Origin: Arcticibacter svalbardensis MN12-7
GTDB lineage: Bacteria; Bacteroidota; Bacteroidia; Sphingobacteriales; Sphingobacteriaceae
Direction: 5' to 3'
DNA length: 36,660 bases
Assembly: GCF_000403135.1 (NCBI RefSeq)
Contig: NZ_AQPN01000109.1
Coordinates: 1-36,660, forward strand
The notes under the pieces are model-generated. The model was not told where the DNA came from. It saw nothing but the letters and a program-made list of their open reading frames with translations, and searched no databases. A program made the position numbers and the translations under genes. Below are positions 9,315 through 35,944 of this stretch, piece by piece; within the stretch, counting starts at the first letter, position 1, and each line of letters opens with the position of its first letter.

Positions 9315-9369
9315 TTAAATAAAGTGATAAGTTGATAAGTATTGGCCAGGATTTCATCTAATAGATTAT

Positions 9370-9416
9370 TTATCTAAAATAACTTATTTTCCTTAGAATA
9401 AAATTTATTTAGATAA
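9370..9416 (-). terminator. A/T-rich hairpin after the DoxX gene
   Basis: TTATCTAAAATAA (9370-9382) pairs with TTATTTAGATAA (9405-9416) with one bulged base. It begins 9 bp past the DoxX stop in the minus direction and 50 bp before the AraC start, so it could end the DoxX transcript. The stem is almost purely A/T, so the call is weak. Confidence 0.35.
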
Positions 9417-9424
9417 TATGTTTG

Positions 9425-9874
9425 TTAGCGCCCCCTCCAAGCTTTCCAGGCATTTGTACACCACAATGCCCAAACTACCAACACCGGTTGAAACAACAAC
9501 CTGATCCCACGCGACAAATCTGAGTTTAACCCAAACGCATCCGTATGCGTGATGTACTGAGAGATATTTCCCGGAAAAACGAGTACAAAGAATGAGGCTA
9601 CAACCCAACCAACAAGTACCCGCTGTTTTGATAAGACAATTAAACTTAAGCCGAGTAGAATTTCTACAATCCCTGACAAGACAACAACAAGATCACCAGA
9701 TAAGGGTAGCCACTTTGGTACCTGTGCTAAAAATTCAACCCTCGACCAGGTAAGGTGTCCTGTACCTGCAAAAATCAAAAATGCACCAAGAATTACTCTT
9801 CCTATTGTTTGTCCTGTACTTGTTTTTCTGTAATCGTTCATAACGTATTTAGTATCCATTTTGGAGAAGTCCAT
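9425..9874 (-). CDS. DoxX-family membrane protein
   Basis: The 149-residue protein has four hydrophobic segments (about 24-42, 60-80, 86-104 and 123-143), the layout of the DoxX/DoxD-like family. The stretch GAFLIFAGTGHLTW followed by SGIVEILLGLSLI is characteristic of Bacteroidota members. Its function is unclear; relatives are linked to quinone or thiol redox and stress membranes. An ATG at residue 6 or 12 could also be the start. It follows the copper-related genes on the same strand but is separated from the YHS gene by 245 bp containing a strong inverted repeat, so it may be a separate unit. A broken copy of the same gene lies at 5699-5817. Confidence 0.82.
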   Translation of the reverse strand: MDFSKMDTKYVMNDYRKTSTGQTIGRVILGAFLIFAGTGHLTWSRVEFLAQVPKWLPLSGDLVVVLSGIVEILLGLSLIVLSKQRVLVGWVVASFFVLVFPGNISQYITHTDAFGLNSDLSRGIRLLFQPVLVVWALWCTNAWKAWRGR

Positions 9875-10038
9875 TAAAGAATCAAAAATTCTTCTAAAGA
9901 GGTAAGTCTAAATAGGCAACACTTGTTTTTAATGTAAAGGGAAATCCGTTTATATCTTTCCTATTGTAAAGGTAAACCTCTGTCAATCGTAGCTATTTGA
10001 ATATAAAAGATTACAGTATGATACTAGTATGAATCCGA

Positions 10039-10076
10039 TATAAGTCCGACTGTAGGTACTTTAAGTCGGACTTATA
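10039..10076. repeat. 13-bp perfect inverted repeat downstream of the YHS gene
   Basis: TATAAGTCCGACT (10039-10051) and AGTCGGACTTATA (10064-10076) form a perfect 13-bp stem with a 12-nt loop. It lies 43 bp past the YHS gene stop and 165 bp before the DoxX start, both on the minus strand. No T tract follows in that direction. It may be a factor-dependent terminator of the copper cluster or a protein-binding site for the DoxX gene. A 10-bp palindrome ATACTAGTAT (10021-10030) lies just beside it. Confidence 0.5.
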
Positions 10077-10119
10077 CCAGATTTATACTGCATTTTTTAC
10101 CCTATCATTAATAACCAAA

Positions 10120-10416
10120 TTACTTCTTGGCTTTAACTTTTACAAACTTTTCAGGCTGCTTTGAAAAAGAGGCTTTACATGATCTGGTACAAAAGCCATA
10201 TACTTTATCCTTATACAATACCGTCAAAGTACTCCCCTTTTTAACGGGCATTCCACAAACCGGGTCTTTCGTATCCGCTTTAAGTGTATCCAACAATGTA
10301 GCTGCTACAACTCTAGTACCTTTCAAAATAGGATGAACTCCAGAGGAAGCTTTCACTTGTAGAGACAACACTGTCATCCCACAAATCAGAAGAAATAGTA
10401 ATCTATAATTTTTCAT
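10120..10416 (-). CDS. Secreted YHS-domain protein (metal-binding)
   Basis: The 98-residue protein has an N-terminal signal-like hydrophobic segment (about 5-20) and a C-terminal YHS domain: DPVCGM (51-56), then VYGFCTRSCKASF with C76 and C80, and the usual FxKxPEKFV end. YHS domains bind heavy metals, often copper, through these cysteines and are found in P-type ATPases and small periplasmic proteins. It follows the copper-type TonB receptor gene by 33 bp on the same strand, so it is probably the last gene of that operon. A role as periplasmic copper carrier or sensor is inferred from context; the domain call itself is firm. Confidence 0.85.
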   Translation of the reverse strand: MKNYRLLFLLICGMTVLSLQVKASSGVHPILKGTRVVAATLLDTLKADTKDPVCGMPVKKGSTLTVLYKDKVYGFCTRSCKASFSKQPEKFVKVKAKK

Positions 10417-10449
10417 GTTATCAAATAAATTAAATTAAAAATAACCCGG

Positions 10450-12492
10450 TTAAAACAGAGCCGTCATCCGGAATAAGAAATTGCGCCCGGGCCTTGCAAT
10501 CTTCATGATATCCAGGTGCTGCACATATTCACGATCCAATACATTATCTACTCCAGCATTTGCTCTTAAAACCGGAGATCCTTTAAACTTAAACTCCTTA
10601 CTTATATTTAAATTCAGGATCGTTGATGATGGCGTAGAAGTTTCCCCATAAACCGCGGTGTTCACATTGTTTTGTGCGGCATAGCTAATTGATTCGGCCT
10701 GCAAAGACACCTTTTTTAAGTTATAAAGCACCGCATTTACCGTCTTCAGCGGTGCAATCATCGGCAAGCCGTTCCCCTGGTTGTCGGAACCCCTGGTATA
10801 GGTATTCAAACTGGTCAGGATCAGATTTTCTACTGGCGACCATTTCAACGCCAGCTCTGCGCCAACTAATTTAGCGGATGGAAGGCTGACGTAATGTTTT
10901 ACCCCATTTGCGCCGATGGTCATCACACTATACCCATCCAATAAACTGCCTGTGATATAATTGTTGAAAAAATAACCAAATCCACTAATCTCTGCAACGA
11001 AATGCGCGCTATGAAAACGGGTACTTAAGTTGATATTCGTGGATTGTTCCTGCTTTAAATCCGGGTTTCCGATATAATCGTATCCATCCAGCCGGTTGTA
11101 AATATAAAAGCTATACGCTTCCTGAAGTGTAGAGGAACGTGCTGCACGGGCAACTTCTGCAGAGAATTTCCAGGCATGACTCAGGGTATATCCCAATTCA
11201 AGATTCAGATTAGTCAAAAAACGATTGCGACTAAGATCACCGGGAAACATGCCCGAGAGTTGCTCCTTACCTACCTCGCTGAAAATATAATCGTGCGCAT
11301 AGTCAAACCTACCGCCGATCTGCAGATTAAACTGGTCATTCAAACTGATGTCATCGGACAGATTCAGCCCGATATCGGTCCGCGCCAGGTCTGGCAACGT
11401 ATACATAAACATGGCTGCTCCATCATCGGGATACATGGTCATCTCGGCACTCAGCTGATTATTAAACCCATCAAGCCTTGCTTTGATATGATGCTTTAAA
11501 GAGGGCTGGTACGTCAAAGCGGAATAAGCACCCATTGTCTTTGAGTTCCCCGGCATATCCATGTGCATAGGAACCGTCTCCTTTGGCCGCTGGGTATCAT
11601 CCATGGCATGGTCAATGTAATTGTAATAACCCTTAGTTTCCCAGGATATATTCTTTTCGGGATGAAAATAAACGTAGGAGATCGAACCTATTTTTGCTTT
11701 TGCAAACGAAACATCCATTGTTAGAGCCGGATAACCGATATCAAACCCTTCATCCTGTATGTAATCCGTTTTTAAATAGCTATGCGCAGCCGTTTTAAAT
11801 AGAGCGGAAACATTTCCATTCCACTTCCTGTACTGCGAAAAGGAGATCTCTTGGCCATTGCCTGCCGTGTAATTGGCACTGCGACGAAAGATCCCATTAG
11901 CCTGAATAGCGAAATTCGGAGTACTATACTCCATTCCGGCCAGACTTTGGAATGCCTGTCCATTACTTTCAAAGCCTAAACCTGCCGTTCCTGACATTTT
12001 TTTTGAGGAAGTAAACGAAGGGCTCTTAAGTTTAAAGTTGATCCCGCCCCCCATGGAGGAGCCATAAGATCCGCCACCCGGATTAACATCAAAGGAAAGA
12101 CTTTCCAGGTTATTGGGCTCCACATACGAACTGATCGGATCCATACGGTCCGTACAAGCACCAAAAATCCTCATCCCATCAATGGTCATCGTAATCTGTC
12201 CGTTGTTTAAACTCCTGATAGTAGGCTCCATAGCAAAGTTTCCCCGCCGGATCATATTTATTCCGGGGGTAGACTCAAGGATCTTATCGGTCAGTACCTG
12301 CAGATTACTGCGCTGCTGTTCCTGATAAATCGCGCTGATCTCTTTTTCGGGCTGAACAATTACCTCCTTTAACAATAAAGTACGGTCAATCGCATTGGAA
12401 GACAGGCTATCAGCTTGTTGCGCCGATGCTGTATAAATAGCAAGGGCGCAACAATAACTTAAAATTTGTTTCTTGTTCATGAAGAATCTCAT
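10450..12492 (-). CDS. TonB-dependent outer-membrane receptor, OprC/NosA copper type
   Basis: The 680-residue protein has a signal peptide ending near residue 24 (YTASA), a plug domain (about 45-155) and a β-barrel ending in the aromatic FRMTALF. The plug carries IDGMRIFGACTDRMDPISSY, with C113-TDR-M117 (CxxxM), and the barrel has H295-A-M297 (HxM). These match the CxxxM/HxM copper site described for Pseudomonas OprC, so copper uptake is the likely role. A MHMDM stretch (309-313) is also Met/His-rich. The first ATG overlaps the stop of the preceding lipoprotein gene (TAATG), but an ATG four codons later (12480) is an equally good start. No N-terminal carboxypeptidase-like domain is present. 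Assignment to copper rests on motif plus neighbours. Confidence 0.9.
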   Translation of the reverse strand: MRFFMNKKQILSYCCALAIYTASAQQADSLSSNAIDRTLLLKEVIVQPEKEISAIYQEQQRSNLQVLTDKILESTPGINMIRRGNFAMEPTIRSLNNGQITMTIDGMRIFGACTDRMDPISSYVEPNNLESLSFDVNPGGGSYGSSMGGGINFKLKSPSFTSSKKMSGTAGLGFESNGQAFQSLAGMEYSTPNFAIQANGIFRRSANYTAGNGQEISFSQYRKWNGNVSALFKTAAHSYLKTDYIQDEGFDIGYPALTMDVSFAKAKIGSISYVYFHPEKNISWETKGYYNYIDHAMDDTQRPKETVPMHMDMPGNSKTMGAYSALTYQPSLKHHIKARLDGFNNQLSAEMTMYPDDGAAMFMYTLPDLARTDIGLNLSDDISLNDQFNLQIGGRFDYAHDYIFSEVGKEQLSGMFPGDLSRNRFLTNLNLELGYTLSHAWKFSAEVARAARSSTLQEAYSFYIYNRLDGYDYIGNPDLKQEQSTNINLSTRFHSAHFVAEISGFGYFFNNYITGSLLDGYSVMTIGANGVKHYVSLPSAKLVGAELALKWSPVENLILTSLNTYTRGSDNQGNGLPMIAPLKTVNAVLYNLKKVSLQAESISYAAQNNVNTAVYGETSTPSSTILNLNISKEFKFKGSPVLRANAGVDNVLDREYVQHLDIMKIARPGRNFLFRMTALF

Positions 12493-13298
12493 TAGAACAA
12501 AAGATCTAATGCAGCATCTTCTACAATAACGGTGTTGTTTCGAAGCAGTTTCAGATGTAAACGCCAGTCTCCTGTCATGGTGAAATTGACTTTCCCTGTG
12601 TAATGTCCATTGCCACTGCTTACCGGGTTCACATTATTGGGTGATCCATGTCCCATAGAGGGCATTTCAGGGGTCACTTCGATGGTCAGACTTGCATCAG
12701 CGGGGAAATTTAACAAGTCTTGTTTCACATTTACCAAAACTTCCAGATCATTCATCCCTGTTTGTGGGGCTGCTGGCTGTACAATTGATACGCTATAACT
12801 CTTGCCATCGGTGCCTACAAAGGTTCCTGTATGTTTCGTATTCGTCGCAGTAGAATTTACGGGGACATTGAATACAAGACTTTCATTATTCACTTTTACG
12901 GTGAGGCCCCAGGTGCCCATATCGCCTGATGGCATAGAAAAAACAACTGCTCCTTCGTAAAGTTGATCGGATGTGTTATAAATGGGTTGTTCAACCGGAC
13001 TGGAATGTGTCATGGTCATCATATCCATTAATGAGCTATAGGTCACCGTTGCATTGCTTAAAGATGTCCCATCGGCCTTTTTAACTTGTACATAAACTTT
13101 ATTGTAAGCTACCAGATAACTGGTATTATCGGAGTATAACGAAACGATAAGTCCACTTGATGTAGTACTTTCAGCGATCTTCGTTTTTTCGGGTGAAGGT
13201 GTTGTTTCTGTGTCTTTAGAGCAGGCAGCAAGAAAAACAATTCCCACTAGTAGCAGGATTATATTTGTAATTTTTTTCATTTTTAAAATGCTTTTCAA
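12492..13298 (-). CDS. Lipoprotein with two FixH/YtkA-like β-domains
   Basis: The 268-residue protein has a lipoprotein signal with lipobox LAAC (C26); an ATG at codon 7 is an alternative start. Two similar β-sandwich repeats follow. Each contains a Met/His-rich loop, then YxGxVxFxMxxxxxW: MDMMTMTHSSP (91-101) with YEGAVVFSMPSGDMGTW, and MPSMGHGSP (212-220) with YTGKVNFTMTGDW. This is the FixH/YtkA-like pattern, and the Met/His loops suggest copper binding. The stop shares a base with the first ATG of the TonB receptor, so the two are translationally linked. It is probably a surface or periplasmic copper-binding partner of the receptor; that role is inference. Confidence 0.82.
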   Translation of the reverse strand: MKSILKMKKITNIILLLVGIVFLAACSKDTETTPSPEKTKIAESTTSSGLIVSLYSDNTSYLVAYNKVYVQVKKADGTSLSNATVTYSSLMDMMTMTHSSPVEQPIYNTSDQLYEGAVVFSMPSGDMGTWGLTVKVNNESLVFNVPVNSTATNTKHTGTFVGTDGKSYSVSIVQPAAPQTGMNDLEVLVNVKQDLLNFPADASLTIEVTPEMPSMGHGSPNNVNPVSSGNGHYTGKVNFTMTGDWRLHLKLLRNNTVIVEDAALDLLF

Positions 13299-13444
13299 CA
13301 GATGTTTAATTCAAATTTGAAGGAATTAACATCTAATAAAGAAATGGATACACTGATGTTTAAAGGGTATTAACACCCATTGTAACATTCAAAATAAAGA
13401 ATGCCAATCAGTTTTATGATCTTGAATAAGAAGGGGTGCTTATC

Positions 13445-13819
13445 TTAACAGGATGGTGGACGATATACTATTTCGTTGAAAGCAGTAGGCTCCCCGATGG
13501 TCTGGGGATATAAAAATAGTAAAAGGGAATAGGATTGAACTACTTGGTGAGCCGGGCTTGTTGCCTTTTGACTCATCAGGAGTATTTCTGAATCGGAAGA
13601 TGTTTTGGTATTGCTTTTATCTTTTTTACTTTCTTCCTGTTTGATCTTTTTTGCTAATGCGCATTTACCGTTACAATGCAACATCGGCAATTTCTTATTT
13701 ATACAAAGTCTTTCGTAAGCAGCGGTATTGGTATAATAGGTTGCCAGCAGCAGACTTCTGCTGACTGTATGTGCCATGATGGCCATGACTAAAACCAGTA
13801 TTAAACCTATTCTAAACAA
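13445..13819 (-). CDS. Small membrane-anchored CNGKC protein, probable metal-binding
   Basis: The 124-residue protein has one N-terminal hydrophobic segment (about 3-16), then a short conserved Cys region: ERLCINKKLPMLHCNGKCAL with C39, H48, C49 and C53. A charged KKIKQEESKKDK stretch follows, and a hydrophobic patch, SYSLLLFLYP, lies near the end. I do not know a named family, but proteins of this type occur beside copper-type receptors in Bacteroidota; that memory is unverified. It lies 33 bp after the phosphatase-like lipoprotein gene and 146 bp before the FixH-like lipoprotein, all on the minus strand, so copper handling at the membrane is a reasonable guess. Confidence 0.65.
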   Translation of the reverse strand: MFRIGLILVLVMAIMAHTVSRSLLLATYYTNTAAYERLCINKKLPMLHCNGKCALAKKIKQEESKKDKSNTKTSSDSEILLMSQKATSPAHQVVQSYSLLLFLYPQTIGEPTAFNEIVYRPPSC

Positions 13820-13852
13820 TATTTTTTCCTATTTCAGAACAAATATAGCCAA

Positions 13853-14836
13853 TTAAACTCTATTTAGCTTTAAATCCCGCCAATATTTAAACATGCCAAA
13901 TGAAGCCGCTCCTTCATAGGTGAAGGTTTTATCGGCGTTTACCTTTACAAAGAATGCAGCGGTCCAATTATATACGGAGACCTTTGGAAATGTGGGAATG
14001 CCGCTGTCATTGAATTCATTTATCGGATGATGAGTGGAAACTAAAGTAATCTTATTATCTACAGGCGTTTCACTGATGATATGCTGAAGCCCCTGGAATA
14101 ATGTTTCTCCAGTCTTCAGATAATCAGGATGATTGATTCGCTTATCTATAGTGATAGATGGGCCAGAATTGATTAACTGAGCCGTAGTAATAGCCCGGCA
14201 GAATTCGCTGCTGATGACACGGGTAATAGGCATTTTTAAATCCTTGAGCGCAACTCCAAGTTCAGTTGCCCTGGTAATTCCCTGCGGATTAAGCTGCCTG
14301 GCTAGGGTAGAATCGCATGATTTCCACCAGTTGGCAGGGATCACCGGATCCTGATGACCTAAATTGTAATCAAAACCCACACTTGCATCTGCATGCCGAA
14401 GCACAATGAAATACGTTTGACCCGATTCAGCCAGTTTGCGAAGTGTTGCCCAACCTTGAATATATTGCCCGTCCGGGTTATCTGATGCAGCAGCATGATA
14501 CTTTTCGAAGGGATTGACGTGTTCATCATCAGTAGAGCCTAAAACGTATAATTTGGTCATTTTGCCTGTCCTGGGCCAGTTTACATTCACAATAACAACT
14601 TCGCCGGAGGTAATCCGACTGATTAAACCGGAAGCGGAAATGGTAATACTATGATCGGAGGAAGAGTAGGTTGCCGCTTCACTTGTGGTAATTTGAAAGT
14701 CGTGTTTATTCACGAAAAGCAAATCGTCATGTAATGCGGAGGATGTTATTACAGGATCAGGAATAACTTTATCATCTTTTTTACAGGCTCCACAAATAAT
14801 AGATATAATTAATAAAGTAAAGAGAAGGGGTTTCAT
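13853..14836 (-). CDS. Lipoprotein with C-terminal histidine-phosphatase domain
   Basis: The 327-residue protein has a lipoprotein-type signal (GAC, C18) followed by an acidic KKDDK stretch. Residues about 30-105 form a β-rich region (TISASGLISRITSGEVVIVNVNW, resembling an Ig-like segment). The C-terminal half is a histidine phosphatase (phosphoglycerate-mutase-like) domain: catalytic FIVLRHAD with R147-H148, NPQGITRATELG, ISSEFCRAITTAQL carrying the second Arg, and the second catalytic His in STHHP (H269/H270). An extracytoplasmic phosphatase is likely; the substrate is unknown. It is the first gene of the minus-strand group leading into the copper cluster, 33 bp from the CNGKC gene. Whether it is truly part of copper handling is uncertain. 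Confidence 0.82.
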   Translation of the reverse strand: MKPLLFTLLIISIICGACKKDDKVIPDPVITSSALHDDLLFVNKHDFQITTSEAATYSSSDHSITISASGLISRITSGEVVIVNVNWPRTGKMTKLYVLGSTDDEHVNPFEKYHAAASDNPDGQYIQGWATLRKLAESGQTYFIVLRHADASVGFDYNLGHQDPVIPANWWKSCDSTLARQLNPQGITRATELGVALKDLKMPITRVISSEFCRAITTAQLINSGPSITIDKRINHPDYLKTGETLFQGLQHIISETPVDNKITLVSTHHPINEFNDSGIPTFPKVSVYNWTAAFFVKVNADKTFTYEGAASFGMFKYWRDLKLNRV

Positions 14837-14840
14837 AGGG

Positions 14841-14870
14841 AAGATCGTGTTTTTAGGTAATTACGATCTT
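14841..14870. promoter_or_regulatory. Inverted repeat directly before the phosphatase lipoprotein start
   Basis: AAGATCGT (14841-14848) and ACGATCTT (14863-14870) are a perfect 8-bp inverted repeat with a 14-nt spacer. The repeat ends 4 bp before the ATG of the lipoprotein gene at 14836. It may be an operator or a 5'-UTR hairpin limiting ribosome access. On the far side, ATAAGG/CCTTAT (14894-14911) is a weak dyad that might end the pentose-phosphate operon. Confidence 0.4.
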
Positions 14871-14939
14871 TGCGCATAAAAGTTTAACAGATGATAAGGG
14901 TTGTACCTTATATGTATAATATTGTGAAGTTCGCTTAAA

Positions 14940-15665
14940 CTATTTCCCTAAAGCTAATTTTTTAGCAGCCGCTTCATCCACTAGCCAATGCACTTCTCCA
15001 TCTATTGGTTGGATCAGCTGAGCAGGATACTTCTCTGTGTTGCGCTCGCCTTCCAGCACTTCATACAATGCATTTGCCTTGTTTAGTCCGTAAAGCATAA
15101 TGATAATCGTGCGGGCCAGGTTAATCATAGGGGCCGTAAGTGTGATCCGATACATTTCCTGTGCAGCGAGATAATAAGCAGCTACTCTTTTTTTATTCTC
15201 CTGCAAGACAGCTGTTCCCGGAAATAAAGAGGCAGTGTGTCCATCATCTCCCATACCTAAAAGGATCAGGTCGAATCGTTCTGCCGTTACATGAAGATCC
15301 AGCAGCTGCTCGTACTTAATGGCATATAACTGAGGAGACTCGCCCTCTTCCCACATCGGAAAAATATGATCATGTGGTATAGGTACATGATTGAGTAAAG
15401 TGTCGAAAGCCATCCGGGCATTACTTTTTTCATCATCCAAAGGAACCCAGCGTTCGTCTCCCCAATACACAAATACCTTGTCCCATTCTACCTCTTCCTT
15501 GTAAGGGCTGTCGCCTAACAGCGCATATAATAATGCAGGTGAATTACCGCCGGTTAAAGCGACGGTAAAAGACCCCCTTTTTGTGATTGCATCTTTTGCG
15601 GTAGCGATAAACAGATCCGCTGCCGCAGTACTTAAATCTTGTTGGTTTTTATAAATCCCAATCAT
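14940..15665 (-). CDS. pgl: 6-phosphogluconolactonase
   Basis: The enzyme hydrolyses 6-phosphogluconolactone to 6-phosphogluconate, step two of the oxidative pentose phosphate pathway, in the cytosol. The 241-residue protein is of the NagB/DevB-like type: FTVALTGGNSPALLYALL near the N-terminus, VFVYWGDERWVPLDDEKSNARM in the middle, and FDLILLGMGDDGHTASLFPGT, the three landmark blocks of this family. It is the last gene of the operon, 5 bp after zwf, matching the order of the reaction steps. Length is normal. No lesion is seen. Confidence 0.96.
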   Translation of the reverse strand: MIGIYKNQQDLSTAAADLFIATAKDAITKRGSFTVALTGGNSPALLYALLGDSPYKEEVEWDKVFVYWGDERWVPLDDEKSNARMAFDTLLNHVPIPHDHIFPMWEEGESPQLYAIKYEQLLDLHVTAERFDLILLGMGDDGHTASLFPGTAVLQENKKRVAAYYLAAQEMYRITLTAPMINLARTIIIMLYGLNKANALYEVLEGERNTEKYPAQLIQPIDGEVHWLVDEAAAKKLALGK

Positions 15666-15670
15666 TTATT

Positions 15671-17173
15671 TTACTTTGAATGTAAGTTAACTGCCCACAC
15701 GTGGCCTTCTTTGGCAATCAGCGCTTCGGCACTTTCAGGTCCCCATGTTCCTGCGGCATAGTTAGCAAAATCAAGCGACTCCCTGTTTTCCCATACTTCC
15801 TGGATAGGCGTGATCACATCCCATGCTTCTTCCACTTGATCTGATCGCATAAATAAAGTGGCATCCCCCAACATGGCATCCAGAAGCAGCGTTTCGTAGG
15901 CTTCGGGAGTTTGTGTGGAGCATTTATCATAATCAAAGATCATCTCTGCGGGATTCAGGTCCATTTCCAGACCTGTCTTTTTTGCCATGAACCGCAGACG
16001 GATGTCCATGTGTGGTTGGATGTCAATGGTCAGCCTGTTATTCATGAAACTATCCGATTGACTGTTAGCAAAGGTGGAATGTGGCACCGGACGGAAATGT
16101 ATGGTAATGGATGATGTTTTTTCCTGCATTCTTTTACCGGTACGGAGGTAAAAAGGTACGTTCTGCCACCTCCAGTTATCTAAAAAGAATTTGATCGCTA
16201 CATAAGTTTCTGTGTTGGAGCGGGGATTAACATCAGGCTCGTTCCGGTAGGCTGGCACTTTCTTTCCTTCTAACCAACCGTCTGCATATTGTCCTCTTAC
16301 TGCGTACTGATGTACTTCTTCCGGTTTTATACGACGGATAGCGCGCAATACATCTACTTTCCGGTTCCTGATCTCTTCGGCCTGGAAGGAGACGGGTGGT
16401 TCCATGGCAATCATGCAGAGCACTTGTAAAAGGTGGTTCTGGATCATATCACGCAATGCCCCTGAGCCTTCATAATAATCACCACGCTCCTCTACTCCTA
16501 CTTGTTCGGCTACAGTAAGCTGCACATAATCGATATAATTACGATTCCAGATCGGTTCAAAAAGCGCATTGGCAAAGCGAAAGGCAAGAATATTTTGCAC
16601 CGTTTCTTTACCCAGATAATGGTCAATACGGTATATTTGCTTCTCCTGAAAAGTTTGAGTAAGCATGTTATTCAGTTCGATCGCGGTTTCTTTATTGTGA
16701 CCGAATGGTTTTTCAATAACTATGCGGTCTAACTCCGCATCAGAAGCCAGGCCAGCCTTGCTGATATTGACCGTTACAGCTTCAATAAATTGAGGGGATA
16801 CAGAAAGATAGAACAAGCGGTTTGCGCGTGTTCCCCACTCTGCATCCTGGGCATCCAGCTTTTTTGCAAGCTCCTTGTATGATCCTTCTTTATTAATTTC
16901 AGATATAAAATAGGAAATAGCTGGTTTAAAAGAATCCCATTTCGACTTATCCGGTTTGGTTCTGGAAAACTCGACTAATCCTTCATGCAAGCGTTCCCTG
17001 TATTGCTCGTCATCTAATGGTGTTCTCCCTAAACCAATGATGGCGAATTTATCAGGCATCCAATCTTCAAGGAACAAGTTATAGAATGCAGGTAGTAGCT
17101 TTCTCTTCGCAAGGTCACCTGTGCCTCCGAAAATTATAATGATCGTGGCATCAGCCTTTTTATTCGATTTCAT
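15671..17173 (-). CDS. zwf: Glucose-6-phosphate 1-dehydrogenase
   Basis: The enzyme oxidises glucose 6-phosphate to 6-phosphogluconolactone, reducing NADP(+), the entry step of the oxidative branch. The 500-residue protein shows the dinucleotide-binding GGTGDLAKRKL (16-26), EKPFG (154-158) and the substrate-binding active-site RIDHYLGK (182-189). Length is usual for bacterial Zwf. It starts 21 bp after gnd and ends 5 bp before pgl, so all three oxidative-branch genes are together. Cofactor preference cannot be decided from the sequence. Confidence 0.97.
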   Translation of the reverse strand: MKSNKKADATIIIIFGGTGDLAKRKLLPAFYNLFLEDWMPDKFAIIGLGRTPLDDEQYRERLHEGLVEFSRTKPDKSKWDSFKPAISYFISEINKEGSYKELAKKLDAQDAEWGTRANRLFYLSVSPQFIEAVTVNISKAGLASDAELDRIVIEKPFGHNKETAIELNNMLTQTFQEKQIYRIDHYLGKETVQNILAFRFANALFEPIWNRNYIDYVQLTVAEQVGVEERGDYYEGSGALRDMIQNHLLQVLCMIAMEPPVSFQAEEIRNRKVDVLRAIRRIKPEEVHQYAVRGQYADGWLEGKKVPAYRNEPDVNPRSNTETYVAIKFFLDNWRWQNVPFYLRTGKRMQEKTSSITIHFRPVPHSTFANSQSDSFMNNRLTIDIQPHMDIRLRFMAKKTGLEMDLNPAEMIFDYDKCSTQTPEAYETLLLDAMLGDATLFMRSDQVEEAWDVITPIQEVWENRESLDFANYAAGTWGPESAEALIAKEGHVWAVNLHSK

Positions 17174-24205: not shown

Positions 24206-26911
24206 TTACGAACCAAATATACTTTTGGTTTTTTTTATAGTTTTTTCCAGATCTATCCCTTTTCCAAGTACACCTTTGAAAAGATCGCCTTCTACTTTTA
24301 AACGTTCAATTGCATTATGAATAGTAAAATCTTTCATTTTAAGTCCGGGTTTCACTTCTTCCCAATGAAGCGGCATGGATACGGTTGCGCCTACTTTGGG
24401 CCTGAGGGAATAAGGTCCGGCTATTGTTGCACCCGGACGGTTTTGTAAAAAATCGAGGTACATTTTTCCCTTTCTGTTCGCGATCATGCGTTCCAGGCTG
24501 GTATAGTCCGGGAGTTGATCATGCACAATACCCACAATAATACGGGCAAACATTTGCGACTGATCATAGGTGTATTTTGCGTTCAGGGGGATATAAATAT
24601 GCATTCCTGTGGATCCTGATGTTTTGCAGAAGGAAGGAACATCTACGGCATCTAATACTTGTTTTACATGTTGTGCGGCTTCAACCACCTGATCAAACGT
24701 ATTTTTGTCGGGATCCAGATCAATTACACAGTAGTCAGGGTTTTCGGGTGACTGGATCCTGCTAAACCAGGGGTTCATTTCAATACAGCCAAGAGAGGCC
24801 ATCCAAAGCAAACTTGCTTCATCGGTGCCTACGAGGTACTGTTTTTTCTCCTCCTCACTGGTGGTATAAGGAAAGGTTTTGGCCCATTCAGGTGCTTTAT
24901 CCGTTACGTCTTTCTGGTAAAAGCTGGAACCATGGATGCCACCAGGAAAGCGGTTGAGTGACATGGGCCGGTCCTTCAGATAAGGCAGCATATACTCCGC
25001 AACCTGGTAATAGTAGTTGAACATATCCCTTTTTGTGATCCCATCTTCGGGCCAGTAGACCTTACTTAAGTGGGTAAACTTCAGCTCACGGTTACAGATC
25101 TTGCGCACCTGGGTTTCATCCTTGGGATTTAATAAGGTTTTGCGTTCTTTTCCTTTCGGGGGACTGATGACATCGGTATGCTGATCTTGGTCGGGTTCTT
25201 CTGTTGTTTCCAGTACTTCTGCAGCAGAGATTTCAGCTTCCCGGACTACTTCTTTAGCATTTTTATCAATCCGCATCCCTTGAAAAGAAGGGTGGCGAAA
25301 TACGCCATCATCCGTTACTTCGGTAAATGCGACTTCACATACTAATTCCGGTTTTAGCCATGTTGCGAGGGCTTTAGGGGGATTGGGACGAAAACGGGAT
25401 GGTTTGTTAACATCAGGGATTGCTTTAAAAGGACTTTCCTCTGTAATCAAGGGTTTAAACTGTGCAATCATCTCTTTTTGCAATTTGTCGGAAAACCCGG
25501 TACCCACCTTGCCTACGTATTGTAAGTCACCATTTTCATATACCCCCAGGAGAAGGGAACTGAATTGTTTAGAAGTATCTTTTTTCTTTGTGTAACCTGC
25601 AATGATGACTTCCTGTCTTTTATGAACCTTAACCTTCAGCCATTCTTTGGAACGAAGATCCGGAGAGTAGGTGCTGCTGCTTTTTTTAGCTATGATCCCT
25701 TCCAGTCCTATCTTTTCAGCCGCCTGATAAAAATCTATTCCACTAGTTTTAAATACTTTACTAATCTGGATGCGATCATCATCCGTTGGTAGAATTTCTT
25801 TCAGAATAGCTTGCCGTTCGCTAAGAGGTAAATCCATGAGGTTCTTTCCATCATACCAAAGCAGGTCAAACACATAATAAACCAGTTCGCCATCTGCTTC
25901 GCTCCGCCAGTTCTGCAAGTCACCGAAATTGGAGATCCCTTTTTCATTGAGCACTAAAACTTCACCGTCTAAAAGGGCATTGATCTTCCACTCTTTTAGG
26001 ATCCGGTGTATCGGGTAAAATTTATCATTAAAGGATTTGTTGTTGCGGGAATAGAGTTCTACTTCGCCCTTGTTGATGGATGCTAAAGCACGATAGCCAT
26101 CCCACTTGACTTCAAACTGCCAGTCGGGGTCATCAAAAGCTTCATCAACGAGGGTTGCCAGCATCGGTTTGACATTTTCTGGAAGCTTTGATTTTGGAGC
26201 AGCTTTAATTAATTTGGCAGGATCTATTTGCTTAAGATCTGCCTCTTCCTCCTGGTCAGCTTCTACAGGAGGTTCAGCAGCTTCAGTTATTGGCTCTGCT
26301 GTTTCCTCGTGACCACTTTGCCAGATCTTATCACTGGTTTTTTCTACTTTATCAATTGTTTTGCCAGAGATAACGGATTTATCCTGTTTGGTTACATCCT
26401 TTGTGGAAGCAAAATCATCATTGTGTTTGATGAGCAACCAGCCATTTTCTCCCATGCCATGCGTTTTAACCAGCGCGTATTCACCTTGTAACTTTTCACC
26501 ATGCAGTTTAATCTTCAGGGAGCCGGATTGTAATTGTTTAAGCAGATGTTTTTCCTGTGCTTTTTTCCCTTTAATTTCTTCGATGGGCTCGTAAGTACCC
26601 TGATCCCATACAATCACAGTACCCCCTCCATATTCCCCCTTAGGGATGATGCCTTCGAAGGAGCGGTAATCAAAAGGATGATCTTCTACCATCATGGCAA
26701 GACGTTTCATTTTGGGATCCGTAGAAGGCCCCTTTGGAACCGCCCAACTCTTCAATACACCTTCCATCTCTAACCTGAAATCGTAGTGCAAACGAGATGC
26801 GTCATGTTTTTGAATCACAAAGATTAACTGCTCTTTGTCTTTGCTTTTCCCTGACTTGGGTTCTGCTGTTTTAGTAAAATTCCTTTTCTTAACGTATTTC
26901 TCCAGGGTCAT
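24206..26911 (-). CDS. ligD: DNA ligase D (LigD), phosphoesterase-ligase-polymerase
   Basis: LigD joins double-strand breaks in bacterial non-homologous end joining. All three domains are present in 901 residues. The N-terminal 3'-phosphoesterase has HDASRLHYDFRLE (36-48) and GEYGGGTVIVWDQG (92-105). The ATP-dependent ligase has the nucleotidyl lysine K269 in FEVKWDGYRA, plus EGIIAKK (404-410). The C-terminal primase/polymerase has the metal-binding DLDPD (731-735). The acidic, Glu-rich linker (about 196-240) is unusually long but in frame. It is transcribed divergently from the antiporter gene. No ku gene lies in the window; the usual partner may be elsewhere in the genome. Confidence 0.97.
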   Translation of the reverse strand: MTLEKYVKKRNFTKTAEPKSGKSKDKEQLIFVIQKHDASRLHYDFRLEMEGVLKSWAVPKGPSTDPKMKRLAMMVEDHPFDYRSFEGIIPKGEYGGGTVIVWDQGTYEPIEEIKGKKAQEKHLLKQLQSGSLKIKLHGEKLQGEYALVKTHGMGENGWLLIKHNDDFASTKDVTKQDKSVISGKTIDKVEKTSDKIWQSGHEETAEPITEAAEPPVEADQEEEADLKQIDPAKLIKAAPKSKLPENVKPMLATLVDEAFDDPDWQFEVKWDGYRALASINKGEVELYSRNNKSFNDKFYPIHRILKEWKINALLDGEVLVLNEKGISNFGDLQNWRSEADGELVYYVFDLLWYDGKNLMDLPLSERQAILKEILPTDDDRIQISKVFKTSGIDFYQAAEKIGLEGIIAKKSSSTYSPDLRSKEWLKVKVHKRQEVIIAGYTKKKDTSKQFSSLLLGVYENGDLQYVGKVGTGFSDKLQKEMIAQFKPLITEESPFKAIPDVNKPSRFRPNPPKALATWLKPELVCEVAFTEVTDDGVFRHPSFQGMRIDKNAKEVVREAEISAAEVLETTEEPDQDQHTDVISPPKGKERKTLLNPKDETQVRKICNRELKFTHLSKVYWPEDGITKRDMFNYYYQVAEYMLPYLKDRPMSLNRFPGGIHGSSFYQKDVTDKAPEWAKTFPYTTSEEEKKQYLVGTDEASLLWMASLGCIEMNPWFSRIQSPENPDYCVIDLDPDKNTFDQVVEAAQHVKQVLDAVDVPSFCKTSGSTGMHIYIPLNAKYTYDQSQMFARIIVGIVHDQLPDYTSLERMIANRKGKMYLDFLQNRPGATIAGPYSLRPKVGATVSMPLHWEEVKPGLKMKDFTIHNAIERLKVEGDLFKGVLGKGIDLEKTIKKTKSIFGS

Positions 26912-30656: not shown

Positions 30657-31994
30657 ATGGGTCCTACAGTTCTTATTATTGATGACGAAAACAAGTTACG
30701 CGGTTTGCTTGCCCGCATTATAGAACTGGAGGGATTTACAGTTTTGCAAGCTTCGAATGGAAAATCAGGACTAAAGATGGTCGAAAACGAGGATCTCAGG
30801 GTGGTAATCAGCGATGTAAAACTACCTGATGCCAACGGAGTTGAACTCGTTAAACAGATCAAAGAGATCAAACCATTTGTTGAGGTGATCAACCTAACCG
30901 CCTATGGAACCATCCAAGATGGTGTCCTGGCCATTAAAAATGGGGCGTTTGACTATATAACCAAGGGCGATGATAATGACAAAATCATTCCCCTACTGAA
31001 CAAGGCGCTAGATAAAGCAAATTTGCAATATCGGGTCAGTCAGCTTGAACAAAAGGTGGGTAACAAATATAGTTTTGATACTATACTGGGTAATTCCAAT
31101 GCCATAAAAGAGGCAAAAGAACTAGCCAGGAAAGTAGCAAAAACCGATACTACCGTTTTATTCTTAGGGGAAACGGGAACTGGAAAGGAAGTATTTGCAC
31201 AGGCAATTTTATATGAAAGTGCCCGTAAGATGAAACCCTTTGTAGCGGTCAACTGTAGTGCCATTTCACGCGAACTATTAGAGAGTGAACTCTTCGGGTA
31301 TAAAGCCGGAGCATTTACCGGCGCTCAAAAAGATAAAAAAGGACTCTTTGAGGAAGCTCATGGAGGCACCATCTTTCTGGATGAGATTGGCGAAATGAGT
31401 CTCGATCTTCAGGCTAAAATGTTACGCATCCTTGAATCCGGTACTTTCATTAAAGTGGGGGATACTAAAACTACTGAAGTCAATGTCCGCCTGATGGCTG
31501 CAACAAATCGCAACCTACAAGAGGAAGCTGAAGCTGGACGCTTTCGACTGGATCTCTTTTACCGCCTTTCCGTTTTCACTATCTATCTACCCGCTTTGAA
31601 AGACCGTAAAGATGATATTGAACTCCTTGCCAAACATTACCTGAAAGAGTTTGCTGAAAAAACGAATATTCGGTTCGGTAAAATGGACGAGAAATTCCTC
31701 CAACTTTTAAAGGATCATGCCTGGAAAGGAAATATAAGGGAACTTAAAAATATAATGGAACGCGTAACCATTCTTTCCGATGGAGGTACTATTACTCCGG
31801 ATTTACTTCCCTACGAGTTTCATTCCGAACAACCGGAAACTCAATCCTTTGATCTCGCTAGCGTAGAAAAATACCATATTTCTAAAGTATTGCGACATAC
31901 CAAAGGGAACAAAACGGAAACATCAAGACTTCTTGGTATCGGTTTAACCACCCTTTACCGTAAAATTGAAGAGTATAATATCCAGTCTTTTTAA
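30657..31994 (+). CDS. Sigma-54-dependent response regulator (NtrC family)
   Basis: The 445-residue protein has three domains. The receiver (about 3-120) has the phosphorylation site D53 in VVISDVKLPD and the acidic pocket IIDDE (7-11). The AAA+ domain has Walker A GETGTGKE (171-178), the sigma-54-contact loop GAFTGA (218-223) and Walker B GTIFLDEIGE (237-246). The C-terminal Fis-type helix-turn-helix (about 405-445) ends TLYRKIEEY. It activates RNA polymerase containing sigma-54. It precedes the kdp genes on the same strand, a layout seen in Bacteroidota kdp loci, and the kinase at 34190 is the likely partner. A candidate -24/-12 site lies at 32124. It is followed by a strong terminator. Confidence 0.95.
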   Translation: MGPTVLIIDDENKLRGLLARIIELEGFTVLQASNGKSGLKMVENEDLRVVISDVKLPDANGVELVKQIKEIKPFVEVINLTAYGTIQDGVLAIKNGAFDYITKGDDNDKIIPLLNKALDKANLQYRVSQLEQKVGNKYSFDTILGNSNAIKEAKELARKVAKTDTTVLFLGETGTGKEVFAQAILYESARKMKPFVAVNCSAISRELLESELFGYKAGAFTGAQKDKKGLFEEAHGGTIFLDEIGEMSLDLQAKMLRILESGTFIKVGDTKTTEVNVRLMAATNRNLQEEAEAGRFRLDLFYRLSVFTIYLPALKDRKDDIELLAKHYLKEFAEKTNIRFGKMDEKFLQLLKDHAWKGNIRELKNIMERVTILSDGGTITPDLLPYEFHSEQPETQSFDLASVEKYHISKVLRHTKGNKTETSRLLGIGLTTLYRKIEEYNIQSF

Positions 31995-32017: not shown

Positions 32018-32048
32018 AAAAAACCCTTCCATAACGGAAGGGTTTTTT
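32018..32048 (+). terminator. Strong Rho-independent terminator after the response regulator
   Basis: AAAAAACCCTTCC (32018-32030) and GGAAGGGTTTTTT (32036-32048) form a 13-bp stem with a 5-nt loop and end in a T run. It lies 23 bp past the regulator stop and separates it from the kdp genes. The left arm core ACCCTTCCATAA occurs a second time 20 bp upstream (32003-32014), offering an alternative, weaker stem. Confidence 0.88.
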
Positions 32049-32123: not shown

Positions 32124-32140
32124 TCGGTACAAGCATTGAT
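32124..32140 (+). promoter_or_regulatory. Candidate sigma-54 promoter for the kdp genes
   Basis: TCGGTACAAGCATTGAT resembles the -24/-12 consensus TGGCAC-N5-TTGCW: GG at 32126-32127, then exactly 10 nt, then GA where GC is expected. The invariant GG and the TTG are kept, the -12 C is not. A start near 32151 would leave an 11-nt leader to the ATG at 32162. The neighbouring regulator is a sigma-54 activator, which supports it, but a one-base mismatch in the key -12 dinucleotide keeps confidence low. Confidence 0.35.
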
Positions 32141-32161: not shown

Positions 32162-32254
32162 ATGTTAACGATCCTATTACTACTCGCCCTGCTGATTTGT
32201 TGCTGGCTTTTTGGAATTAAATTAATTGATCTCCTGATTACTTTTATGTTTTAA
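32162..32254 (+). CDS. 30-residue single-span membrane peptide at the kdp operon head
   Basis: The reading frame gives MLTILLLLALLICCWLFGIK and then LIDLLITFMF, one hydrophobic span of a length fitting the small peptides (KdpF or a similar tiny ORF) that precede kdpA in many kdp operons. It starts 22 bp after the candidate sigma-54 site and ends 10 bp before kdpC. KdpF normally stabilises the KdpFABC potassium pump. Here kdpA and kdpB, which should follow, are missing. The assignment is by position and character only: a 30-residue peptide cannot be identified securely. Confidence 0.5.
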   Translation: MLTILLLLALLICCWLFGIKLIDLLITFMF

Positions 32255-32264
32255 AATTACTAAA

Positions 32265-32837
32265 ATGAAAAAATACATCCTACAATCTATCCGTTTGACT
32301 TTGGTGCTTATCGTACTGTTATGCGTGCTATATCCTATCTTAATCGCTTTCGTTGGTAAACTTTCAAAAGGTGAAGGAGGCGGACAAAAGATAGTAGTAG
32401 ACGGAAAAACAGTTGGTTATACCAATATTGGACAGCTATTTACACGCCCTGATTATTTTTGGGGACGCCCATCTGCAGTGGAATATAATGCAGCAGGATC
32501 TGCCGGCTCTAATAAGGGCCCTTCTAATCCGGATTACCTAAAACAAGTAGAGGAACGAATTGATACCTTATTGAAGTATCACCCTTATTTGAAACGTGCT
32601 GAAATCCCTGCAGACCTGGTAACTGCTTCAGGAAGTGGTCTTGATCCTGATATATCATCTGAGGCTGCTCGTATCCAAATCAGAAGAGTGGCAGAAAACC
32701 GAAAATTAAATATAAACGAAGTAACTGCTTTGGTAAACAAAAACACCGAAGGTCCCTTTCTTGGATTAGTTGGACCATCAAAAGTAAATGTGCTCCAATT
32801 AAATCTTGCCTTGAATGAAATGGCTAAAGCTAAATAA
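32265..32837 (+). CDS. kdpC: Potassium-transporting ATPase subunit KdpC (orphan)
   Basis: KdpC is the single-span accessory subunit of the KdpFABC potassium-uptake ATPase. The 190-residue protein shows an N-terminal membrane anchor (about 7-30), then the conserved FTRPDYFWGRPSA, SNKGPSNPDYL, PADLVTASGSGLDPDIS and EGPFLGLVGPSKVNVLQLN blocks; all are intact. KdpC alone has no known pump activity: it needs KdpA and KdpB. Neither lies upstream, where only the 30-residue peptide and the regulator are present, nor downstream. About 225 bp without recognisable genes follow before kdpD. A porin often found in this place in Bacteroidota is also absent. Confidence 0.95.
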   Translation: MKKYILQSIRLTLVLIVLLCVLYPILIAFVGKLSKGEGGGQKIVVDGKTVGYTNIGQLFTRPDYFWGRPSAVEYNAAGSAGSNKGPSNPDYLKQVEERIDTLLKYHPYLKRAEIPADLVTASGSGLDPDISSEAARIQIRRVAENRKLNINEVTALVNKNTEGPFLGLVGPSKVNVLQLNLALNEMAKAK

Positions 32838-33062
32838 TCCGAGCTTTAGATTATAGTGAAACAAGGGATGATTTATAGATTCGCAAATCAACAATTGGAT
32901 TATCTAACAGCAAAAGTGTAGTTGATCTAACAGGTTGCAAAGAATTATACAAGGCCAAATAACAGAGCTAGTAAATTACTAACTTGCCGGTTTAATGCTC
33001 AGGTTTTTAATAATGAATACTTAAGATCTTAGTGAAATAAGTACTAATAAATTGCTTAAATA

Positions 33063-34193
33063 ATGGACGACGACTTCCGGGAAAACTCCGTACAAAAGTT
33101 TCTTGATCTGGTAAAAAAGACCAGGAGAGGAAAATTTAAAGTTTACATCGGCATGAGTGCCGGTGTAGGAAAGACGTACCGGATGCTTCAGGAAGCGCAT
33201 TCCCTACTCAGAAATGGAATCAATATTCAGATTGGCTATATAGAGACACACAACCGTTCGGAGACACATTCTTTACTCGAGGGCATTCCTCTGATTCCAA
33301 GAAGAAAAATATTTTATAAGGGTAAACAACTGGAAGAGATGGATGTAGCTGCTATTCTGAACAGGCATCCCGAAGTAGTTATTGTTGATGAACTTGCGCA
33401 TACCAATGTAGAAGGGAGTAAAAATCAAAAACGCTGGCAGGATGTTGTAGACCTTTTAGAAGCTGGGATCAGTGTTATTTCTGCGGTCAATATTCAGCAC
33501 ATGGAAAGTCTGAATGAAGATGCACAGAAAATAACAGGCATCCTGATCACGGAACGGATTCCCGACAATATTCTTTCTATGGCAGATGAAATTGTCAATA
33601 TCGACTTAACAGCCGACGAACTTATTGACCGCCTCAAAGAAGGAAAGATCTATGACAGCAGCAAAATTAACCTGGCTCTTAAAAATTTCTTTCAGGCTGA
33701 TAAGATCCTGCAATTGCGTGAACTGGCATTAAAGGAAGTTGCTCATTATGTAGAACGCAAAATCAATGCGGAGATACCCAAGCAGATTAAACTGCGTCCT
33801 GAACGTTTTCTTGCATGCATTTCTTCCAATCATGATATTGCAAAAACAGTGATCAGGAAAACTGCCCGCCTGGCTTCCTATTACCGTTCCCCCTGGTTAG
33901 TGTTGTATGTGCAACGCAGTGCTGAAAATAGCGATCGGATTAAGCTTGATAAACAACGGCATTTAATTAACAACATGAAGCTCGCTACAGAGTTAGGCGC
34001 CGAAGTAATAAGAGTTAAAAGTGACCACATTACGAGAACTATTATGCAAATTGCTGAAGAAAAAGAAATCACTACAATTTGTATTGGAAAACCTCATTTA
34101 AATATCTGGCAGGTCATGTTGCGCACTGCCATCTTCAACCAGCTACTCCAAAAGATAGCAGCAACTGATACTGATTTAGTTATATTGTCATGA
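33063..34193 (+). CDS. kdpD: Short KdpD (KdpD plus USP domains, no kinase)
   Basis: The 376-residue protein corresponds to the N-terminal cytosolic half of classical KdpD. It has the KdpD domain with Walker A GMSAGVGKT (30-38) and Walker B-like VDELAHTN (108-115), followed by a universal-stress-protein-like domain (about 245-376, ending TICIGKPHLNIWQ). It has no membrane segments and no kinase core. This split form is normal in Bacteroidota, where the kinase is a separate protein. Its stop overlaps the start of the kinase gene (ATGA), so the two are likely made together and act as a potassium or c-di-AMP-responsive sensing pair. It is not a truncation caused by damage. Confidence 0.92.
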   Translation: MDDDFRENSVQKFLDLVKKTRRGKFKVYIGMSAGVGKTYRMLQEAHSLLRNGINIQIGYIETHNRSETHSLLEGIPLIPRRKIFYKGKQLEEMDVAAILNRHPEVVIVDELAHTNVEGSKNQKRWQDVVDLLEAGISVISAVNIQHMESLNEDAQKITGILITERIPDNILSMADEIVNIDLTADELIDRLKEGKIYDSSKINLALKNFFQADKILQLRELALKEVAHYVERKINAEIPKQIKLRPERFLACISSNHDIAKTVIRKTARLASYYRSPWLVLYVQRSAENSDRIKLDKQRHLINNMKLATELGAEVIRVKSDHITRTIMQIAEEKEITTICIGKPHLNIWQVMLRTAIFNQLLQKIAATDTDLVILS

Positions 34194-35944
34194 AAATCAA
34201 AAACAAACTACGCCTCGGATTCGGATTCCTATTCGTTGTGGTTATATTATTCGGTGGTCTATCTTTATATTATCTGCGTGAGATCTCAAACAACGCAAAA
34301 GTTATCCTGAAGGATAATTATGAGAGTCTTCATTATGCGCGTGAAATGAGAACGGTACTGGATGAAACTGATTTGCCACTTTCAGACATTGCCATCAACC
34401 GTTTTAATGCAGAACTGCAGAGTGAATTTAAAAACATTACCGAACCTGGTGAAGCGGAAGCTGCAGCTAATCTCCGTAAAAGCTTTGAAAGCTTGCAAAG
34501 CTCTACTCTTCCTCTAAAGCAGCTGCAGTCAGCACAACGTTTTGCCCGCGTTTACCTCCGTAAAATTGAAGAGTTAAATATGCAGGCTATTGTGCGTAAA
34601 AACAACCAGGCGCAGCAGTCCGTAGAAAAGGCTACCATCTACCTGGGCATGATCGGCACGGTCACCTTCCTCATTTTGTTCAGTTTCAGTATCAACTTTC
34701 CAGGCTTTATAGCCAACCCTGTTAATGAACTGACAGAAGGAATCAGGGAGATCTGCAGGAAAAATTATAAAACCAGACTAAATTTTAAAACCACAAGAGA
34801 ATTTGAAGAAGTAGCGAGTGCTTTTAACCAAATGGCCTCCCGACTAAATGAATGGGAAAACAGTAACCTGGCACAGGTAATATCAGAAAAACTACGAATT
34901 GAAACTATTATTGAACAAATGCAGGACGGGATCATTGGTTTAAATGAGAAAAACAAAGTCATTTTTATTAACCCTACTGCAGAAAGTCTTTTGAACTTAA
35001 ACGAAGAGAATATTGTAGGCTCTGATGCCTTTGATGTTGCAAAGAGAAATGATTTGCTCAAGAACCTTTTGGAAAATAAAAACCAGGATAAACCCATTAA
35101 GATCTATGCGAATGGGAAAGAGTCCTACTTCCAATTAGAAAGTCGGGAAATCACCATACCCATATACAATCAGAATTACGATAACCCAATCATTAAATCA
35201 GAAGAATCTGCAGGTGAGGTTTATATACTAAGAAATATAACCAAATTCAGGGAGCTTGATGAAGCCAAAACCAATTTCATTGCCACCATTTCACATGAAT
35301 TAAAAACCCCTATCGCTTCCATAAAAATGAGTTTAAGGTTGCTTTATGATAACCGTGTAGGCGATTTGAACACAGAGCAATCTGAGTTATTAAATCACAT
35401 CAAAGATGATGCGGAGCGCCTTCTTAAAATTACTACGGAGCTACTTGATCTGGCACAGGTAGAGACTGGAAACATTCAACTCAATCTCATGGCCGCCGAT
35501 CCAAAACAAATTGTGGAATATGCGGTCAACGCAGTGAAATTTCAGACTGAACAAAAGCGAATCACATTAGGTATCAAAGTAAAAGATAACCTGCCTAAAG
35601 TGCATGCTGATCTTGAAAAAACCGCTTGGGTGTTAGTTAACTTCCTCTCAAACGCCATAAGATATAGTCCGGAGAACTCATCAATAATCATTGAAGTGAA
35701 AAGCATGAGTAACTTTATTCAGTTTACGGTTCAGGATTCAGGGAATGGAATCGAAGAGAAATATTTAGACCGGCTGTTTGAACGCTATTTTCAGGTGCCA
35801 ACAGATGGGCGCAACAAATCAGGATCAGGACTAGGATTAGCTATTTCCAAAGACTTCATCGAAGCACAAAAAGGGGATATATTTGTTGAAAGTGAATTAG
35901 GTACCGGAAGTAAGTTTGGATTTAACCTGCCTAAAACCGCTTAA
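34190..35944 (+). CDS. Membrane sensor histidine kinase (HAMP-PAS-HisKA-HATPase)
   Basis: The 584-residue kinase has two membrane segments (about 9-28 and 149-170) around a periplasmic domain of about 120 residues, a HAMP linker (about 175-225), a PAS-like domain (about 235-350), the phosphoacceptor H369 in FIATISHELKTP, and an ATPase domain with N488 in LVNFLSNAIRYSP, then QDSGNGIEE and SGSGLGLAIS. It overlaps the kdpD stop by 4 bp and is the probable kinase for the sigma-54 response regulator at 30657. The pairing is inferred from locus layout. All boxes are intact. Confidence 0.93.
   Translation: MKIKNKLRLGFGFLFVVVILFGGLSLYYLREISNNAKVILKDNYESLHYAREMRTVLDETDLPLSDIAINRFNAELQSEFKNITEPGEAEAAANLRKSFESLQSSTLPLKQLQSAQRFARVYLRKIEELNMQAIVRKNNQAQQSVEKATIYLGMIGTVTFLILFSFSINFPGFIANPVNELTEGIREICRKNYKTRLNFKTTREFEEVASAFNQMASRLNEWENSNLAQVISEKLRIETIIEQMQDGIIGLNEKNKVIFINPTAESLLNLNEENIVGSDAFDVAKRNDLLKNLLENKNQDKPIKIYANGKESYFQLESREITIPIYNQNYDNPIIKSEESAGEVYILRNITKFRELDEAKTNFIATISHELKTPIASIKMSLRLLYDNRVGDLNTEQSELLNHIKDDAERLLKITTELLDLAQVETGNIQLNLMAADPKQIVEYAVNAVKFQTEQKRITLGIKVKDNLPKVHADLEKTAWVLVNFLSNAIRYSPENSSIIIEVKSMSNFIQFTVQDSGNGIEEKYLDRLFERYFQVPTDGRNKSGSGLGLAISKDFIEAQKGDIFVESELGTGSKFGFNLPKTA

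Follow-up and report, generated by a model that had tools for sequence, protein, structure and literature searches.

The window analysed here is a stretch of 36,660 nucleotides (G000:C109:1-36660) from Arcticibacter svalbardensis MN12-7, probably an Arctic soil bacterium, whose genome comprises 4,687,695 bases in 149 contigs with a completeness of 99.99%. It is the one genome of the species that was compared, no other strain being present in the sample. Near the start of the contig, a type I restriction enzyme R-subunit-like protein is encoded at 686-3703. The kdp locus occupies the forward strand and begins with an NtrC-type, sigma-54-dependent response regulator (RR; 30657-31994) that has a receiver domain, an AAA+ domain and a Fis helix-turn-helix (Pfam PF00072, PF00158 and PF02954, respectively) and carries a GAFTGA motif at residue 218. 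A terminator-like hairpin with a T-run, identified by eye, follows the RR gene at 32024-32048, and a similar hairpin lies 3' of the RR gene in the sister locus described below. A possible -24/-12 (sigma-54)-like element, GG-N8-TTG, is found at 32125-32140, 36 nt upstream of a small ORF of 30 codons (32162-32254). The next gene is an intact kdpC (32265-32837) encoding 190 amino acids (PF02669, E = 1.2e-67), and its product also scores above the cut-offs of NF010606, NF001454 and TIGR00681.

Downstream of kdpC, a short KdpD of 376 amino acids (33063-34193) consists of a KdpD domain (PF02702, E = 3.1e-90) without a kinase domain. No Usp family was reported for it in the Pfam search, and it aligns with NF038185 over nearly the full model length at 345 bits, below the cut-off of 550. 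A whole-genome search returned this protein as the single PF02702 match. It is followed by a histidine kinase (HK; 34190-35944) in which Pfam recognizes a 4HB sensor-like start and HAMP, PAS, HisKA and HATPase domains. The kinase is likely the partner of the short KdpD, and an HK match follows KdpD in all 41 of the loci L061-L101. The intergenic region between kdpC and KdpD (32838-33062) measures 225 nt in the window versus 162 nt in the sister locus and aligns poorly; neither holds a porin, a gene that is present at this position in two other genomes (G001 and G005).

Neither kdpA nor kdpB is found between the RR gene and kdpC. The first-pass annotation had already described both genes as missing between the front of the operon and kdpC, with RR, kdpC, KdpD and HK placed around them, and our analysis confirms this layout. 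There is also no kdpF at the locus, as the window has no counterpart to the ORF ending in PEKF that precedes kdpA in 39 of 40 loci (counting L018 and L061, which are one locus); in relatives, kdpF is a separate ORF of 25-26 amino acids just 5' of kdpA. Measured against a functional kdpFABC operon, the window thus offers an intact kdpC and lacks kdpA, kdpB and kdpF. Of a KdpDE system it has the KdpD sensor domain and a histidine kinase, split over two proteins (PF02702; HisKA/HATPase), and the regulator beside KdpD is of the NtrC type with a sigma-54 AAA+ domain instead of an OmpR-type KdpE.

The missing genes are present in a sister species, Arcticibacter eurypsychrophilus MJ9-5 (G002), in which two kdpA and two kdpC genes belong to two complete pumps. 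In the genus sample, kdpC and kdpA are present in four of six genomes, with two of each in this one. One of its operons, on contig C7 (NZ_MDFN01000016.1; locus L018), is syntenic with the window and reads RR (140-1474), leader (1647-1730), kdpF (from 1735), kdpA (1822-3537), kdpB (from 3549), kdpC (from 5599), KdpD (from 6334), HK (from 7461) and cupredoxin (from 9384). The window retains RR, kdpC, KdpD and HK in the same order and as the same proteins (95%, 92% and 95% identity for RR, KdpC and HK), but kdpF and kdpA are absent and only 13 codons of kdpB remain. At the DNA level, 88-90% identity flanks a single large gap. The ATG codons of the leader and kdpC stand 3952 nt apart in L018 versus 103 nt in the window, so that 3849 nt (3 x 1283) are missing, and the 10-nt spacer before kdpC is the same in both. 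Comparison with this sister species places a full operon where the window has its gap.

The small ORF records both ends of this gap. Its sequence is MLTILLLLALLICCWLFGIKLIDLLITFMF, and the L018 leader begins MLTILLLLALLILCW; 14 of the 15 N-terminal residues match. Its last 13 residues (GIKLIDLLITFMF) are those of the KdpB C-terminus of L018 (13/13). It is therefore a chimera made of leader codons 1-15 (32162-32206), two junction codons, and the last 13 kdpB codons plus the stop codon (32213-32254), with the best ungapped breakpoint at 32206-32212. The leader itself is a conserved hydrophobic peptide of 26-27 amino acids with a DWFEKI-like end, located 5' of kdpF or kdpA. Besides the window, five further kdp loci of Arcticibacter have a similar leader (L018, L019, L002 on contig C12, L020 and L021). 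It was found in 7 of 40 loci, or six distinct ones given that L018 and L061 are the same (L018, L002, L019, L020, L021 and L101), which belong to Arcticibacter and one Mucilaginibacter. We considered and rejected the 30-residue ORF as a kdpF, since the kdpF of relatives is a separate ORF of different sequence. We likewise rejected it as an intact operon head, which is how the first-pass annotation had read it, because of the KdpB residues at its end.

These comparisons make it very probable that a clean in-frame deletion took away kdpF and kdpA together with kdpB up to its last codons. Such a deletion, leaving a sensing system and an orphan subunit, had been among the explanations offered at first pass, and it now gains the 3849 bp still present in the sister and the breakpoints legible in the chimeric peptide. 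Microhomology between the breakpoint sequences of L018 does not exceed 2 bp in register, and exact words common to both sides within 100 nt are 7 bp long at most. Sequences of this kind fit the end-joining of a deletion, and their scarcity of repeats argues against an assembler having joined repeats. The in-frame fusion is a one-in-three chance and by itself proves nothing. A LigD-type DNA ligase/primase is encoded in the window at 24206-26911 (Pfam); it is speculation that an end-joining ligase of this type could make repeat-free deletions of such a kind.

A genome search for kdpA and kdpB, also proposed at first pass, located both genes on another contig, C12, together with a second kdpC. 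KdpA gave one match in the genome (E = 1.9e-220); KdpB gave one match above the curated cut-off, with nine weaker rows below it; and KdpC gave two, on C12 and in the window. The C12 operon (locus L002) comprises a leader (9495-9578), kdpF (from 9584), kdpA (9670-11388), kdpB (11403-13442), kdpC (13453-14019) and a porin-like gene (14104-15174), where "porin" is our own label and NCBIfam gives a weak maltoporin match. Its kdpF, kdpA, kdpB and kdpC are open and complete, with TIGR00680, TIGR01497 and TIGR00681 above cut-off, and C12 kdpFABC is thus a predicted complete potassium pump. Loss of the pump from the organism as a whole was rejected on account of this operon. Within 19 kb around the C12 kdp genes, there was no match to RR, KdpD or HK.

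The same findings bear on whether the 3.85 kb might be present in the cell and have been dropped from the draft assembly, a collapse that the first-pass annotation had raised. The genome was sequenced with 454 reads at 23x into a 4.69 Mb draft of 151 contigs (PMC3709154), which leaves some room for such an artefact. However, the sole kdpA found in the genome belongs to C12, and the C12 copy, whose KdpC is 69% identical in protein to that of the window, is too divergent to have absorbed another copy. The near absence of shared sequence at the breakpoints, the reading frame kept across the junction (at its one-in-three chance), the preserved spacing to kdpC and the completeness of 99.99% point the same way. 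We consider an assembly artefact very unlikely.

The C12 operon has its own counterpart in the sister, on contig C35 (L019), with the order RR, leader, kdpF, kdpA, kdpB, kdpC, porin; no KdpD match was found in the approximately 620 nt left on C35 past the porin. C12 aligns to C35 over positions 9342-15721 and 8049-8687 of L002, the alignment including an upstream acetyltransferase-like ORF. Between the aligned blocks, C12 has 654 nt versus 1432 nt in C35, where the RR gene is located. The 654-nt segment (8688-9341) thus lies upstream of the surviving operon in place of the sister's RR gene; elsewhere in the genome it has only a 195-nt match at 65%. The hairpin that follows the RR gene survives at C12. 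Because the next closest RR in the genome is only 42% identical, the C12-type RR appears to have been lost and not moved. In G005 the RR gene is directly upstream of kdpA, and this gene order favours loss of the RR on C12; in G001 the RR gene lies past HK in the opposite direction.

Taken together, the two loci hold one each of RR, KdpD, HK, KdpFAB and porin, and two kdpC genes. Since the sister has two complete pumps, the two copies in A. svalbardensis appear to have decayed reciprocally. The common ancestor with A. eurypsychrophilus would have carried one operon of the window type (RR-leader-F-A-B-C-KdpD-HK) and one of the C12 type (RR-leader-F-A-B-C-porin). A single deletion of about 3.85 kb would then have fused leader codon ~15 in frame to the last 13 kdpB codons, so that kdpF, kdpA and almost the whole of kdpB disappeared while kdpC, KdpD and HK stayed, and the C12 operon would separately have lost its own RR. 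This looks like a redundant operon decaying in the usual way, and the resulting separation of control from pump is instructive. Between the same two species, synonymous divergence is 0.73-1.06 for the C12/C35 genes versus 0.44-0.54 for RR, KdpC, KdpD and HK of the window and C7.

In order to assess how unusual the locus is, 47 KdpD loci in named genomes were surveyed, one of which is the sister itself. Among the 38 with more than 6 kb of sequence upstream of KdpD, matches to kdpA, kdpB and kdpC were found in 37; the exception, from an Acidobacteriaceae bin (L106), shows none of the three. The other nine loci have less upstream sequence, and two of them still show all three genes. At higher cut-offs, one locus (L094) has broken kdpA matches and no kdpB. 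In the family sample, kdpC is present in 210 of 301 genomes and kdpA in 207 of 301. The kdpC-only genomes, from the rows read, are G030, G132 and G176; the G132 match starts 1373 bases into its contig, and the two G176 matches are fragments at contig edges. Two kdpC matches occur in eight genomes, of which G031 (two pieces in one place) and G176 (the edge fragments) were set aside. The remaining six (G000, G002, G055, G249, G287 and G292) have two separate kdpC genes, taken as full-length, and two of them, A. svalbardensis and G055, have a single kdpA. The reverse count, two kdpA matches with one kdpC, applies to G172, G215, G230 and G269.

The second kdp locus of G055, a one-contig genome of the same family, resembles the window in that kdpA and most of kdpB are gone from a locus (L121 8265-9731, on G055:C1) that keeps kdpC, KdpD and HK. 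Unlike the window, it adjoins a transposase-like ORF (a label assigned by eye), behind which lie 93 C-terminal KdpB residues, kdpC, a porin, KdpD and HK; it also has no leader fusion, and no RR match in 16 kb. At least two events of different kinds thus seem to have removed the pump core from a second operon. G030 has a single shortened kdpC (L122 8638-9120, on G030:C22) without any match to kdpA, kdpB, KdpD, HK or RR within the 17 kb around it, and its genome has no kdpA match.

The window KdpC could be a passive leftover or could retain a role. It contains no stops and compares with the sister KdpC at a dN/dS of 0.081, against 0.091 for the C12/C35 pair; residue changes number four on the window lineage and five on the sister lineage, with four ambiguous. 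By this low-power test no relaxed selection was seen, and the undecayed state fits a recent deletion and retained function alike. If the window KdpC, possibly together with the chimeric peptide, were kept by selection as a regulatory or alternative subunit of the C12 pump, this would accord with the intact ORF and its dN/dS, with the conserved spacing from kdpC to the upstream ORF, and with an alignment spanning residues 13-186 of 190 to KdpC from solved KdpFABC complexes. We regard such retention as improbable, in that the C12 operon has its own kdpC, a large share of the dN/dS signal may be older than the deletion, and the G055 kdpC beside a kdpB stub and the lone shortened kdpC of G030 are as expected for passive leftovers. 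The first-pass suggestion that KdpC serves a pump encoded elsewhere therefore survives in part: C12 does encode a pump, yet one with a kdpC of its own, and the window KdpC would be at most redundant or alternative. Similarly, that reciprocal loss split the pump system, with the leftover KdpC and perhaps a chimeric membrane peptide modulating or joining the distant pump, is a long shot. We favor the reading in which KdpC and the chimeric peptide would be by-products that are still undecayed.

Sigma-54 control is expected because the RR of the window has a GAFTGA motif and the genome has a sigma-54 factor match. All seven loci examined, the window and C12 among them, have GG-N8-TTG at 36-41 nt 5' of the start of the leader (41 nt in G001), although the motif was chosen by visual inspection of these same, related loci after a stricter pattern had been applied. 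In single-base shuffles, it arises 30-45 nt upstream at a frequency of 0.00025-0.008 per locus, and four of the seven elements end in TTGA versus the canonical TTGC. The stricter sigma-54-like pattern matched 6 of 40 loci (with L018 and L061 again one locus) and missed C12 and L019. A search for an enhancer repeat common to the regions 5' of the two leaders (window and C12) found none; the terminator region alone gave the best local match. In the recognition-helix stretch, the window RR agrees with the C35 RR at 15 of 16 residues. As judged from these upstream sequences, the promoters hint weakly at control of C12 in trans.

KdpD may provide a second connection. The C12 KdpB retains the TGES serine that corresponds to E. 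coli S162 (aligned to 6hra chain B, with the position counted by hand), which is the target of KdpD acting as an atypical serine kinase. The short KdpD of Deinococcus geothermalis has been seen to phosphorylate KdpB of E. coli, and the same source describes species in which the two activities reside on separate chains (PMC11018627). By analogy, the short KdpD of the window may phosphorylate C12 KdpB in trans.

We therefore weighed whether the sensing system of the window serves other promoters, with C12 being constitutive or otherwise controlled. No pump is retained at the window, no regulator lies within 19 kb of the C12 kdp genes, and C12 lacks a match to the stricter promoter pattern, all of which would suit such an arrangement; another HK in the genome could also serve C12. 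Nevertheless, C12 retains a leader and GG-N8-TTG positioned as in the sister locus that still has its RR, and HK, KdpD and RR of the window differ from those of the sister at a dN/dS of 0.038-0.051. We view this alternative as unlikely, if somewhat less so than a selected role for KdpC. The explanation that we prefer, and hold to be probable overall, is a lineage-specific deletion that made the window the control half of the system, serving the C12 pump in trans, with KdpC left over. HK and RR of the window would respond to low potassium by activating the C12 pump, and the short KdpD, a relative of a serine kinase on KdpB, would act on C12 KdpB in trans. We infer this control in trans, as well as the promoter type, the redundancy of KdpC and any expression.

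The arrangement can be placed against known systems. Like E. coli kdpFABC-kdpDE, it has a protein of the KdpC family, the KdpD N-terminal domain and, in the C12 pump, the KdpB serine; unlike E. coli, it divides KdpD and the kinase between two proteins, has an NtrC-type regulator where E. coli has KdpE, and carries the pump on another contig. A short KdpD, a separate HK and a sigma-54-type RR are also found in other Bacteroidota kdp operons (L018 and loci of Mucilaginibacter and Chitinophaga), although an RR match is not near the operon of every relative. In a comparison of two Arcticibacter strains (PMC5435697), potassium metabolism appears as one of the main transferred-gene categories of MN12-7, and the main text does not contain the term "kdp". 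Among the literature matches listed, no title concerns an orphan kdpC of the kind seen in the window.

In summary, a seemingly broken potassium-uptake locus is best explained by a deletion, specific to this lineage, that affected one of a pair of redundant operons; both breakpoints are readable and an intact sister is at hand for comparison. The chimeric ORF serves as a caution that a tidy small ORF may be the scar of a deletion even when it lies beside a conserved gene. The two loci illustrate how duplicated operons can lose complementary parts in nature, such that regulators and pump become unlinked, and the window lends itself to a clean test of control in trans over a pump by a split KdpD and kinase with a sigma-54-type regulator.
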